A stretch of DNA of 35,271 bases, from the IMG/VR virus record IMGVR_UViG_3300030099_005086, positions 1 to 35,271 of that record, one strand, 5' to 3'. Of this stretch, positions 10,413 to 17,093 are shown one piece after another; position 1 is the first letter of the stretch, and the number at the start of each line of letters is the position of its first letter. Origin of the DNA: a virus. Below the pieces are notes generated by a model. It saw nothing but the letters and a program-made list of their open reading frames with translations, searched no databases and had not been told where the DNA came from. Made by a program: the position numbers and the translations under genes.

Positions 10413-10781
10413 TTAACGTTTTCCACCGTGATATGCAACTGCATGACCTTCTTTTATTAATAAATCATTAACACATATCATTGTTAGTTTATCTGATCCA
10501 TCTACTTTATCTATAGATAATTTTCCTAAACATCTACCAAACTTTCCAACACCTTGTGAATTTAAAACAATAGTATCACAACCTTCTAGTAAACATTTAA
10601 GTCTATCTTTAGCAGCTAGACCCCTTTTCTTTTCTTCTAAGTCTCTTGTTCTAGACTCAGGAGTATTAATACCAGCAAGTCTTATACGTTTCTTAACTTT
10701 AATACTAAAACCAAGATCTATATAAGCATCAATAGTATCTCCATCAATAACTCTAATTAAGTCAATTTGATAAGAATACAT
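10413..10781 (-). CDS. Staphylococcal nuclease homologue (SNase/thermonuclease-like)
   Basis: A 122-aa protein with the SNase core: VIDGDT (11-16, metal-binding D15 region), RIRLAGINTPES (R34, T40, E42) and FGRCLGKL (R83). By alignment with staphylococcal nuclease these correspond to D21, R35, E43 and R87, so the catalytic set is present; the D40 calcium ligand is Asn here (N39). There is no signal peptide, so it acts in the cytoplasm or is released on lysis. It probably degrades nucleic acid, such as host DNA or debris during late infection. It lies just downstream of a 23-aa CDGSH microgene and a holin-like gene. Confidence 0.85.
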   Translation of the reverse strand: MYSYQIDLIRVIDGDTIDAYIDLGFSIKVKKRIRLAGINTPESRTRDLEEKKRGLAAKDRLKCLLEGCDTIVLNSQGVGKFGRCLGKLSIDKVDGSDKLTMICVNDLLIKEGHAVAYHGGKR

Positions 10782-10786
10782 CTTTA

Positions 10787-10858
10787 TTAGCTGTTATGAG
10801 AACCATCACAGTTCCCATTTTCATCTTTTGTTTTACCACATACACATTGTCCCATCAT
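10787..10858 (-). CDS. 23-aa CDGSH-type iron-sulfur micropeptide (candidate)
   Basis: A 23-codon frame begins at an ATGATG whose first ATG overlaps the TGA of the holin-like gene (ATGA), and stops 5 nt before the nuclease start, filling a gap that would otherwise be empty. The peptide contains CVCGKTKDENGNCDGSH. This matches the CDGSH iron-sulfur consensus (CxC..S/T...P.CDGSH) with one extra residue and no proline: two Cys in CxC, then Cys and His of CDGSH, the usual 3Cys-1His ligand set for a 2Fe-2S cluster. Known CDGSH proteins dimerise and act in redox or iron homeostasis. Whether so small a peptide binds a cluster is untested. Confidence 0.6.
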   Translation of the reverse strand: MMGQCVCGKTKDENGNCDGSHNS

Positions 10859-11247
10859 TTCTTTGTTTTTTCTAATGATCTTCCTCCAAAATAAGCTCCA
10901 ATCACTGTTATTAATACTAACTGAAGTAAATCAGTCCACTTTTCTTCTACATTAAATGCTATTGCACCAGCATCAATAAATATCATAAGCACTGTGCAAA
11001 CAACTAAAAAAATTAAAACTAATGGTCTTACATTTTTACTTAACCATGAGTCACTTTTTAAGTCTGCCTCCCATCTAGATGTGATGTTTTTTTCCATCTC
11101 AATCTCATAGTTGGCAATTAATTCTTTTATTTTTCTCTCTGCTTCTAGCTTCTCTTCTTTTGTAGTAGTTAGATTATCTAATACACCACCAACTGATTCA
11201 ACTAGCTTATCAGCACCACCACTGAATATTTTACCTATAATACTCAT
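10855..11247 (-). CDS. Holin-like membrane protein (3TM holin family-like)
   Basis: A 130-aa protein starting at ATG 11247, one base after the upstream stop; a longer frame from TTG at 11310 would overlap the neighbour and is unlikely. The N-terminal 'GGADKLVESVGGVLDNL' is amphipathic, followed by a Glu/Lys-rich helix, then 'SWLSKNVRPLVLIFLVVC', two hydrophobic segments and a basic tail. That order (amphipathic helix, charged helix, 'W..r.vRP' before the membrane segments) matches the 3TM holin family of phages and gene-transfer agents. It would form lysis pores in the inner membrane. Confidence 0.75.
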   Translation of the reverse strand: MSIIGKIFSGGADKLVESVGGVLDNLTTTKEEKLEAERKIKELIANYEIEMEKNITSRWEADLKSDSWLSKNVRPLVLIFLVVCTVLMIFIDAGAIAFNVEEKWTDLLQLVLITVIGAYFGGRSLEKTKK

Positions 11248-11248
11248 A

Positions 11249-11524
11249 TTAACACTTCCATCTTTTTCTAGCAAGACATGCTCTTTTCTTAGGAGTTTTT
11301 CTACAATCAATATTAAACTTCTTAATTTGTCCTAAGTTTCTAGCACAGAAAGATCTTTTACGTGGACCTCCACCAGGTTGAGGAGCTTTAAGATTAGAAC
11401 CTGTTTTACGGTTAATCATCTTACGTCCCTTAGCAGTTAGTCCACCTGATTTACTTTTACAACCATTCTTGATTGTACAACCAGCCATACCACCTTTCTT
11501 ATATTCTATAATACTAGACATCAT
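11249..11524 (-). CDS. Basic Cys-containing small protein (DUF6321-like)
   Basis: A 91-aa strongly basic product. 'GGLTAKGRKMINRKTGSNLK' followed by a Pro/Gly stretch and 'RKRSFCAR' matches, from memory, the DUF6321 pattern seen in marine phages and large algal viruses. Several Cys (in 'CTIKNGC', 'FCAR', 'DCRK', 'ACLARKRWKC') could bind metal or form cross-links. The start is in ATGATG at 11524, and the upstream gene's TGA overlaps it; the second ATG (11521) is equally possible. It is one of a run of very basic small proteins and probably binds nucleic acid or sits in the virion. Function unproven. Confidence 0.7.
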   Translation of the reverse strand: MMSSIIEYKKGGMAGCTIKNGCKSKSGGLTAKGRKMINRKTGSNLKAPQPGGGPRKRSFCARNLGQIKKFNIDCRKTPKKRACLARKRWKC

Positions 11525-13853: not shown

Positions 13854-16800
13854 TTAATATTTCACTATATTATAATTTACAATTTTATTTTGATATTTAA
13901 TAGTAAAATTGTAAATACCTTTGTTATACTTACTTAAATCAATTTGATTAACATCTTTTAAGTTTAGTATTTCTTTTCCTAAATTATCTCTTATTATTAT
14001 ATCAACAGTCTCAGTTATATTTACAAGACCAGTTGTTGGATTAGGATATAACATAATTATTTCTTCACCAAATCTTGCAGGAGGTTGTGGTCCACTCCAA
14101 CCATCTTGACAATAATCATATGTAAGTTGACAAACATTATCCCACTCATTATTACAACAATAGTCATCTACTGAAATAACCCAAGCATAACATTCATCAT
14201 TTAACCAATAAGGATTACCAGCACCTGTTATACAACCTGCATCATACAAACAAGATATTGAATCATTAACATTAGCAATATCATTGTAGTTCCATGCATT
14301 TTGATCCATACAACCCGTAATGATTTCAATACAAGAACCATTTTCAGTATTAGCCAATGAATCATAATTAAGGGCAGTAGAGTCAGTACAACCATAAATG
14401 TAAGGTATGCAACTAAAATCTTCAGTATTGGCTTGTGGATTAAAGTTAAGCATAGAAGGGTCAGTGCAACCATAAACATAAGGTACACAAGTGTTATTAT
14501 CAACATTGGCTAAAGGATTATAATTAAACATAGTACTATCTGTACATCCATAGATAGGAAGTATACAACTAAAATCATCTGTATTACAACTATCACAATA
14601 ATTTAATGCAATTGGATCTGTACACCCATAAATATAAGGAACACATGACCCATTGTCAACATTTGCTATAGGATCATAGTTATATGCAGTTGAATCCATG
14701 CAACCATAGGCAAAATGAATACATGATCCATTATCAGTATTTGCAAGAGGATTATAGTTCCACATTGTAATATCCATACAACCATATATAATACCTACAC
14801 AGGATGAATCATCAACATTAGCTAATGCATTATAGTTAAAAGCATTAGGATCTGTACACCCTGGAATAGGTAATATACATGTATTATCATCAATATTTGC
14901 AGTTGAATCAAAATTTAGTGCTAAAGGATTTGTACAACCTTCAATTACAGGAATACAACTATTATCATCTACATTAGCATTAGGATTATAGTTAAAAGCA
15001 AGAGCATTCATACATCCTTCTACAACTTCAATACAAGAACCTACCAACTCTACATTTGCTAATGAGTCATAATTAAGTGCAGTTGGATCCATACATCCTA
15101 ATACAATTAGTGTAGAACATGAACCATCATCATAATCATAAGACGCATCATACTCTAAGTATATAGGATTTGTACATCCTGGATTATAATAACAACTTCC
15201 ATCAGTTGTATTAGCAGAACTGTCATAGTTAACAGCCAAAGGATCTATACAACCATAAACTTTCTCTATACAATTATTACCACAATCTAATAATGTTGTA
15301 TACTTAAATGGATAAGTTAATATAGGAGACCATGGTGATCCACCTATACCAAATGTTATATTTCCAAAAGGATCTATAAGTTGTATACCACATTGATTTG
15401 CTGTAGTAATTGAATTACCTTGAGTATAAAAATATATTTTTACAGGTTCCATTGCTGATAATGAAACTAGTGTATCTAAAACAAAACCCTCATGAATAGT
15501 GTAAGGTCCATATGTATTACCTGCTTGTACTAGTGTAATGTATGAACCAAACCAACCATCACCAGGACCATCAGTTAACTTTAATGTGTAATCACATCCT
15601 GGAATTATTTGTTGTTGATTTGCTAAACTATCATAATTAAACATTGTAGAATCAATACATCCTAATATAACAGGAGTTACACATGAACTATCATCTATAA
15701 CTGCCATAGGATCAAATTCTACATAACTTGGATTTGTACAACCAGAAGGAGGACTAGGTGGTGGACAAAATGATAGTATAAAATTTTGTTCTATCTCATA
15801 TCCAAAGTTTGTATTAGGAGCAGCTAAATAAAATATAGTATCACCACATAATGGATTCATTACAAGAACTTCACCATCTACTCCACCATAACATGAACCA
15901 CATAAACCATCACCAAATTGATCTAACAATCTAAATTCTAAAGCCATTGTAGTATCTAAACAAATAGATGTAGTAACAGGTATACCAGTTTGATTATAAT
16001 TAGGACTTGTAGCTATAACATTCTCTGATAAAGTATCTACAATCTCCCATGATGTTTCACCAGGATAACTATCTGGTGTTACCATAACACTTATATTTGT
16101 TTCATTAGGAGCACAAGCTGCAGTAACATTACAACTACCATCATCCATTGTTGCCATAGGGTTATATAAAGGAGATGTTTCATCCATACAACCCACAATG
16201 CAAGCTTCAGGTGTAATCCATATTGTATCACTATAATTACCACTTTCAAATTTTACAAAAAAGAAATGAGGAATTTCTTCTGTTACAAAATTACCACCTG
16301 CTTTAAGTGCTATAATATTATTATTATTATTAAAATAAGAAACTTCCCATATGGTATATGGAAAGGTAGTTGGAGGAGTAGCACCTACTGGAACTCCTGC
16401 TTGGAAAAATTGACTTTGTACAAAAGGTGTAGCTTCTAAATCATATCCATAATGTATTTGATTAACATCACATGAAGGACCTATTCCATTAGTTAACCAT
16501 TCAAATATAAGTTCTGTTTGATTACCGTTACATTGTTGAGAAGCATTAACTGAATTAAAACCTAAACAATCAGGCCATATACATTCATCATCAAAATATG
16601 CTGAAGGATTATAATTTACTGCCACTGGATTTAAACAACCATATATAGGTGGTGCACAAGGAGCAATAGTAAGTGAGTCAATATATAAAGCACCAAAATC
16701 ACCTTCTACAAATGCTATAGTATCTTGACAAGCATTACGTATTAAAAACCATCCATCTTCACCATTCCATTGTGAGCCACTTAAACCATCTCCATAACTA

Positions 16801-17093
16801 TCTGTAATTGTAAATATATATGGATTATTAATACTATAAACAAATTCAGAATATTCTTCTAATAATTCATAGTCATCTAATAGAACTCCAGTATCACTCT
16901 CTAATATAGTAGTACCATTTACATCTTCTATCTTCCATTCAATTTCTTCAGGATACTGATCAGCTTGATACAATACTTCAATCCAACTATCTGGAGTTAC
17001 AAAGACTTGACTAAAAGCTTTTGTACTAACTAAAATAAGTGACAATACATATATCACAAATAAAGTTTTAAATATGTAAGCTATTATTTTCAT
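13854..17093 (-). CDS. T9SS-exported repeat protein (signal peptide, Cys repeats, type A sorting domain)
   Basis: A 1,079-aa secreted protein. Residues 1-29 form a signal peptide (hydrophobic core, then 'AFSQ'). Several modules follow with 'DSYGDGLSG' or 'DQFGDGLCG'-like sites (possibly calcium-binding) in the first half, then about 17 repeats of the type 'GCTDP.A.NYN..AN.DD.SC', most in one tandem run. A Trp/Cys-rich unit precedes the end. The last 70 or so residues are a T9SS type A sorting domain: 'LYPNPTTGLVNI', 'DNLGKEIL' and 'KGIYNFTIKYQNKI'. In Bacteroidota this domain sends cargo across the outer membrane and is cleaved during surface attachment or release. The phage gene must therefore rely on host Sec and T9SS. 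Likely roles are surface masking, superinfection exclusion or adhesion. The start overlaps the upstream stop (TAATG). Confidence 0.9.
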   Translation of the reverse strand: MKIIAYIFKTLFVIYVLSLILVSTKAFSQVFVTPDSWIEVLYQADQYPEEIEWKIEDVNGTTILESDTGVLLDDYELLEEYSEFVYSINNPYIFTITDSYGDGLSGSQWNGEDGWFLIRNACQDTIAFVEGDFGALYIDSLTIAPCAPPIYGCLNPVAVNYNPSAYFDDECIWPDCLGFNSVNASQQCNGNQTELIFEWLTNGIGPSCDVNQIHYGYDLEATPFVQSQFFQAGVPVGATPPTTFPYTIWEVSYFNNNNNIIALKAGGNFVTEEIPHFFFVKFESGNYSDTIWITPEACIVGCMDETSPLYNPMATMDDGSCNVTAACAPNETNISVMVTPDSYPGETSWEIVDTLSENVIATSPNYNQTGIPVTTSICLDTTMALEFRLLDQFGDGLCGSCYGGVDGEVLVMNPLCGDTIFYLAAPNTNFGYEIEQNFILSFCPPPSPPSGCTNPSYVEFDPMAVIDDSSCVTPVILGCIDSTMFNYDSLANQQQIIPGCDYTLKLTDGPGDGWFGSYITLVQAGNTYGPYTIHEGFVLDTLVSLSAMEPVKIYFYTQGNSITTANQCGIQLIDPFGNITFGIGGSPWSPILTYPFKYTTLLDCGNNCIEKVYGCIDPLAVNYDSSANTTDGSCYYNPGCTNPIYLEYDASYDYDDGSCSTLIVLGCMDPTALNYDSLANVELVGSCIEVVEGCMNALAFNYNPNANVDDNSCIPVIEGCTNPLALNFDSTANIDDNTCILPIPGCTDPNAFNYNALANVDDSSCVGIIYGCMDITMWNYNPLANTDNGSCIHFAYGCMDSTAYNYDPIANVDNGSCVPYIYGCTDPIALNYCDSCNTDDFSCILPIYGCTDSTMFNYNPLANVDNNTCVPYVYGCTDPSMLNFNPQANTEDFSCIPYIYGCTDSTALNYDSLANTENGSCIEIITGCMDQNAWNYNDIANVNDSISCLYDAGCITGAGNPYWLNDECYAWVISVDDYCCNNEWDNVCQLTYDYCQDGWSGPQPPARFGEEIIMLYPNPTTGLVNITETVDIIIRDNLGKEILNLKDVNQIDLSKYNKGIYNFTIKYQNKIVNYNIVKY
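14248..15258 (-). repeat. Tandem array of about 13 Cys-bounded repeats within the T9SS cargo gene
   Basis: Within the gene, units of roughly 26 codons recur, each starting near 'GC[TMI][DN]' and ending near 'SC' or 'TC' with a central 'NYN..AN'. I count about 13 in this run; about four more lie scattered upstream in the protein. The units have diverged at the DNA level, so this is an old amplification rather than a fresh slippage product. Confidence 0.85.

Follow-up and report, generated by a model that had tools for sequence, protein, structure and literature searches.

The window analysed in this work, i.e., the whole stretch of 35,271 nucleotides, comes from a marine virus and harbors on its minus strand an ORF (10858..10787) coding for the micropeptide MMGQCVCGKTKDENGNCDGSHNS and lying between a holin gene and a nuclease gene. 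The earlier note had placed a frame at exactly these coordinates, leaving its strand unstated, and had named the same two neighbours, which the matches below corroborate. The features of the locus are the following:

10787..10858, minus strand: CDGSH-core micropeptide of 23 aa, or of 22 aa from a second ATG at 10855, with homologues in the same place
10796..10846, minus strand: metal-site core CVCGKTKDENGNCDGSH, 17 residues with three Cys and one His, unique in the window, its ligands invariant in gene-anchored relatives
10855..11247, minus strand: 3TM holin gene (phrog_3427, E=5e-29), whose stop overlaps the micropeptide ATG
10413..10781, minus strand: SNase-type nuclease gene (PF00565, E=2.7e-9; phrog_452, E=2e-33), 5 nt downstream of the micropeptide

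The tight fit of the ORF into its gap, also claimed previously, was found again: the micropeptide ATG (10858–10856) and the holin TGA (10857–10855) form a 4-nt ATGA overlap, and the micropeptide stop ends at 10787, leaving a 5-nt gap before the nuclease ATG at 10781. The holin ORF as listed starts with a TTG at 11310, its likely start, inferred from relatives, being the ATG at 11247; its product matches the Pfam family GTA_holin_3TM with E=2.5e-4, under the gathering score. Homologues of the micropeptide occupy the same place in five other loci (L002, L008, L010, L023, and L005). Since L002, L008, and L010 have a single ATG, aligned with the second ATG of the window (TAATGG), Met2 is a possible true start, and a length of 22 aa appears as likely as one of 23 aa. 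The peptide has four residues before the first Cys and two after the His. The full motif occurs once in the window and in 0 of 100 dinucleotide shuffles, even with three mismatches allowed; a CDG[ST]H-type DNA pattern is present once in the entire virus record of 110,739 bases.

The DNA identity between the window and L008/L010 is 93–100% in the micropeptide core, about 85% in the nuclease gene, and about 70% in the holin gene, values that would fit a small cassette, either exchanged or tightly held. At the DNA level, the micropeptide and the nuclease gene start resemble L008/L010 far more closely than does the adjoining holin gene, which suggests a mosaic exchange boundary there. Elsewhere on the minus strand of the window (13854–17093), a 1079-aa phage protein ends with a C-terminal Por secretion (type IX) sorting domain (PF18962, E=2e-6), which may point to a Bacteroidota host and perhaps to a phage protein routed via the type IX system of that host.

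Size, forms, and conservation of the viral family

The window micropeptide is one member of a large family rather than a single oddity. The pattern CxCGKTxDxxGxCDGSH was retrieved from 30 IMG/VR contigs, and a looser pattern with the same spacing of nine residues between the second and the third Cys (hereinafter 9-spacing) from at least 120, a figure representing a lower bound for the size of the family. From the looser-pattern matches listed, 117 ORFs were read; 64 of them code for products no longer than 35 aa and a further 22 for products of 36–60 aa, and L222, MKEVKCKCGCTNNPEGYCDGSHLNK, is an example of the short free-standing form. The core is also carried by larger proteins: a prohead protease (L240; Peptidase_S78_2, E=1.7e-12) has it as its C-terminal tail, proteins that we read as SAP-like (L016, L018, and L306) have it as a tail or an insert, and membrane-anchored forms were found in L019, L031, and L303. 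A 96-aa protein (L302, 3130–3417) harbors a degenerate second motif, CGCGRSPTGKCIGWH, near its N-terminus and the full core near its C-terminus. None of the micropeptides tested matched PHROGs below E=0.2, and probing phage records with four of them by tblastn retrieved nothing, or chance-level matches only (E of 3 or more). The literature gave nothing on point for CDGSH in phage, bacteriophage, or cyanophage, nor for holin with iron-sulfur. The family is large and strongly conserved, and we found no earlier description of it.

In order to avoid selecting for the motif, further loci were collected by searching with the adjacent membrane protein. When the window-type 3TM holin served as the anchor, one of the 80 best relatives was accompanied by the micropeptide (L002, L008, L010, and L023, the other relatives of the window, entered via the motif search). 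A second 3TM holin (group B), diverged from the window holin but homologous to it (hhalign probability 99%), had the micropeptide in 15 of 80 loci, its ATG coinciding with the holin stop or preceding it by a few bases in all 15. The 12 distinct cores of this group gave an omega of 0.20, with the three Cys and the His invariant; as the filter itself required the His, the statement that no His-less copy was missed rests on the reading of all downstream ORFs and on a search for the tail LPFP, which never occurs without the motif (26/26). The third anchor, a 2TM holin-like family unrelated to the 3TM holin (hhalign probability 1%), was screened for the three Cys alone: the micropeptide was found in 50 of 80 loci and the His in 50 of these 50, with pN 0.093, pS 0.731, and an omega of 0.036 (bootstrap 0–0.07), best read as "very low" since synonymous sites are near saturation. 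In the other 30 loci the ORF is cleanly absent, the next gene usually following directly.

The earlier note had pointed to broken frames and varying Cys or His residues in relatives as the decisive check. All 65 gene-anchored copies keep the 3Cys-1His ligand set that it had described in the window, including L497 and L498, with CDSSH and CGY; no degenerate copy was seen, the ORF being either cleanly present or cleanly absent, and the ligand codons change synonymously while the ligand residues stay invariant. Because most close holin relatives lack the micropeptide, holin function does not require it. An untranslated chance frame in an intergenic gap might be imagined for an ORF of only 23 codons, with no database family and absent from most close holin relatives; nevertheless, the motif's absence from the shuffles, its presence in at least 120 contigs, the two omega values, and the lack of degenerate copies make this extremely improbable, and on the strength of the omega values and the shuffles we reject it as far as sequence allows. 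The micropeptide is almost certainly a real gene; as read from these alignments, it is under purifying selection and consists of almost nothing but a CDGSH-type metal-site core.

Resemblance to CDGSH proteins

The CDGSH consensus is C-x-C-x2-(S/T)-x3-P-x-C-D-G-(S/T/A)-H, with a Pro among the eight residues that separate Cys2 from Cys3 (PMC3174974; PMC5859297); moreover, CISD proteins possess an N-strand before the motif and a lid-Pro (P) motif, and form a beta-sandwich dimer or pseudo-dimer (PMC3174974). The micropeptides share with CISD/NEET proteins (PF09360; types 1–7 of PMC3174974) the CxC, a Ser/Thr three residues after Cys2, the CDGSH, and the four ligands. The window peptide has the CISD ligand order (CxC...C...H, ending with CDG(S/T/A)H), and the gene-anchored relatives keep these ligands, two of them with CDSSH. 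On the other hand, it departs from the full consensus, nine residues instead of eight separating its Cys2 from its Cys3 and the Pro being absent (in the 9-spacing family a Gly replaces it), and it lacks both the N-strand and the lid-Pro. Micropeptides are also shorter (22–45 aa, compared to about 60 aa or more in CISD proteins), and a dimer fold is known for the latter and none for the former.

A profile built from 21 micropeptides matched 18 PDB chains, all of them CISD/mitoNEET (best E=7.6e-4), assigned as such by name or according to PMC3174974 (3tbm, 3tbn, and 3tbo). Tandem and fused relatives match the Pfam zf-CDGSH model weakly and in its last third only (19.9 and 19.2 bits), relatives scoring 11–20 bits against a gathering cut-off of 29.5, and no zf-CDGSH match was obtained for the window peptide itself. 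AlphaFold gave no confident fold (pLDDT 63 for a 40-aa relative and 58 for a tandem relative of 57 aa), and Foldseek found no match for the low-pLDDT model of the former.

The SEC-C zinc motif is comparable in being a short metal motif, CxC...C(C/H), that many unrelated proteins carry as an appendage. It ends with CC or CH, whereas the micropeptides keep CDG[ST]H, including Asp-Gly-Ser; a generic zinc loop or a SEC-C motif is disfavoured, since this Asp-Gly-Ser and the Ser/Thr after Cys2 are retained.

The exact canonical CDGSH motif was also found, among the matches listed, in viral ORFs of 24–60 aa from marine and freshwater contigs (L331–L450). Some are free-standing micropeptides of 24–39 aa with the motif at their very start (e.g., L331, L333, L343, and L401), and the two that were tested both scored above the Pfam zf-CDGSH cut-off; this implies that such a mini form exists outside the variant spacing, too. 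They share the short free-standing form with the 9-spacing family and differ from it in the eight-residue spacing, in the Pro, and in their neighbours, which are enzymes: the commonest is a 2OG-Fe(II) oxygenase-domain family, a CMD-family protein recurs too, and an upstream membrane neighbour was observed in 1 of 40 among the matches listed. The profile matches, all to CISD/mitoNEET chains, the weak zf-CDGSH matches, and the exact-consensus viral forms passing Pfam together argue for a CDGSH identity. The likeness put forward by the earlier note stands at the profile level and fails at the level of the textbook motif. The micropeptide very probably descends from, or copies, a CDGSH core, and by its sequence the window peptide is a CDGSH-core variant that we do not file as CISD.

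Cellular genomes harbor the core as well. In Flavobacteriales it was found in 28 of 396 genomes (0 with a reversed-pattern control), including free peptides of 28–46 aa. Flavobacteriales YceI proteins (L032, L046, L056, and L482–L486) carry it at the extreme N-terminus, before a hydrophobic signal/anchor segment, where a metal site is unexpected, and in PSP1-domain proteins of the same order (L034, with PF04468 at E=4e-28, L457, L468, L473, and others) a Lys-rich stretch is followed by a CDGSH-like core at the end. In Opitutae, tandem copies are present in proteins of about 57 aa, and ribosomal protein bS16 (L037, with PF00886 at E=4e-21, and L052) has a long Ala/Glu-rich C-terminal extension containing the CxCGKTxDxxGxCDGSH core. 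In the tethered forms (L019, L031, L303, and the YceI fusions), the charge pattern places the motif presumably on the cytosolic side.

Association with lysis genes

The placement beside lysis genes, which had been noticed for the window, recurs in unrelated cassettes. The micropeptide has this position at the group-B loci (15/80) and at the 2TM holin-like loci (50/80), and in the L489/L510 cassettes it is accompanied by endolysin and holin genes. In L489 and L510, the order is 1TM protein, 2TM holin-like protein, micropeptide (25 and 26 aa, respectively), 1TM protein, M15 endolysin, and 3TM holin (phrog_894, E=1.7e-30, for the endolysin and phrog_3427, E=9e-13, for the 3TM holin of L489). In group B, it is M15 endolysin (phrog_894, E=2e-26), 3TM holin, micropeptide, and a gene that we take to be NinG-like. 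According to these two orders, the micropeptide occupies different slots of related cassettes, and a conserved site beside holin and endolysin, as found here, is that of a phage lysis-cassette gene. The protein encoded between the micropeptide and the M15 endolysin in L489 (2989–3168) and its homologues is a 59-aa single-TM protein with a calcium-loop-like segment, DKDKDGIPD.

At the 92 distinct 9-spacing loci among the matches listed, the upstream neighbour has a predicted TM segment in 39 of 65 cases, compared to 140 of 752 other short same-strand ORFs (19%; p=3e-12), and the downstream neighbour in 26 of 51 (p=6e-7); both p-values overstate the case, the loci being phylogenetically non-independent, and the variety of arrangements is the better argument. 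The upstream overlaps of the 9-spacing micropeptides cluster at -4, -1, and -11 nt. An M15 motif lies within 3 kb of 33 of 88 9-spacing loci and of 0 of 48 canonical-spacing loci among the matches listed. About half of the micropeptide loci among these matches have no membrane-protein neighbour. No match to an M15 endolysin was found in the virus record of the window itself, which rules out, as a general rule, an obligate partnership with the Zn-dependent M15 endolysin. The linkage to lysis is strong but not exclusive; judged from these arrangements, the micropeptide is an optional small gene of many marine phages that frequently lies in the lysis cassette, in start-stop overlap with a holin or another small membrane protein. 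A small gene overlapping or abutting a holin recalls phage antiholins and other lysis-cassette accessory proteins. The antiholins known to date, however, reside in the membrane or the periplasm and lack a metal core, whereas the micropeptide, by its sequence, is itself a metal-site core.

Possible role of the micropeptide

In all likelihood, the micropeptide binds a metal, folding around one metal centre held by the CxC, the third Cys, and the His. We lean towards a [2Fe-2S] cluster, as in CDGSH proteins, and consider zinc or another metal rather unlikely. The absence of the N-strand, the lid-Pro motif, and the dimer fold, which protect the cluster in CISD proteins, would count against cluster binding. 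The site might be a minimal CCCH zinc loop without any redox role, dimerising or docking on a partner such as a holin tail, an endolysin, or a capsid protein. The presence of the 17-residue core alone, without the CISD parts covering the cluster, the inserted residue, the replaced Pro, and the first annotation of CDGSH itself as a zinc finger (PMC5859297) speak for such a loop; nevertheless, conservation extends beyond the ligands to the Gly and the Ser/Thr after Cys2 and to the Asp-Gly-Ser before the His, as in the CDGSH core, and we hold the zinc loop to be unlikely, too.

A somewhat better case can be made for a portable metal-binding tag or scavenger. Phages and certain marine bacteria would append or express it so as to retain iron, zinc, or clusters or to make proteins more stable, and its late-operon place would derive from strong expression. 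The same core occurs in prohead protease, SAP-like, bS16, PSP1, and YceI proteins, some loci with it have no lysis genes, in about half of the loci a membrane neighbour is missing, and canonical-spacing micropeptides adjoin 2OG-Fe(II) oxygenases instead; thus, the micropeptide may be a general tag and have nothing special to do with lysis, although we do not favour this, as membrane and lysis genes adjoin the 9-spacing forms much more often than the background would predict, and in several arrangements.

Our best explanation, held tentatively, is that of a CDGSH-core micropeptide co-made with the holin and serving as a metal-centred lysis accessory. Translational reinitiation straight after the holin would make the micropeptide, so that both would appear together and in proportion; the micropeptide would then work at the cytosolic face of the membrane, setting or sensing the trigger time of the holin, and loss or redox change of its metal centre would alter its effect on the holin. 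The linkage to lysis is supported by the enrichment of TM neighbours, the two unrelated membrane families, the different slots in M15/3TM cassettes, and the start-stop overlaps, and the side of the membrane by the tethered relatives, whose motif presumably faces the cytosol. These data suggest that lysis may be tied to a metal or redox signal. For an action on lysis or on the membrane we see even chances; a metal- or redox-gated timing of lysis is doubtful, and the broadest proposal, that a large family of virus-encoded CDGSH-core micropeptides comprises metal- or redox-responsive regulators of holin triggering, by which the iron or redox state of the infected cell helps set the time at which it is lysed by marine phages, is more doubtful still.

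Should a cluster be bound by these peptides, about 20 residues would suffice for CDGSH chemistry, with no need of the NEET fold; this would bear on the beginnings of iron-sulfur proteins and offer a ready-made minimal scaffold. To our knowledge, few natural free-standing iron-sulfur (or metal) proteins would then be smaller than the micropeptides. Should the micropeptides act on holins, metal or redox state would become an input to marine phage lysis, which is of interest where the ocean is iron-limited. Either way, genes of 22–45 codons that are common, conserved, and, as far as tested, absent from PHROGs are part of these viral genomes.
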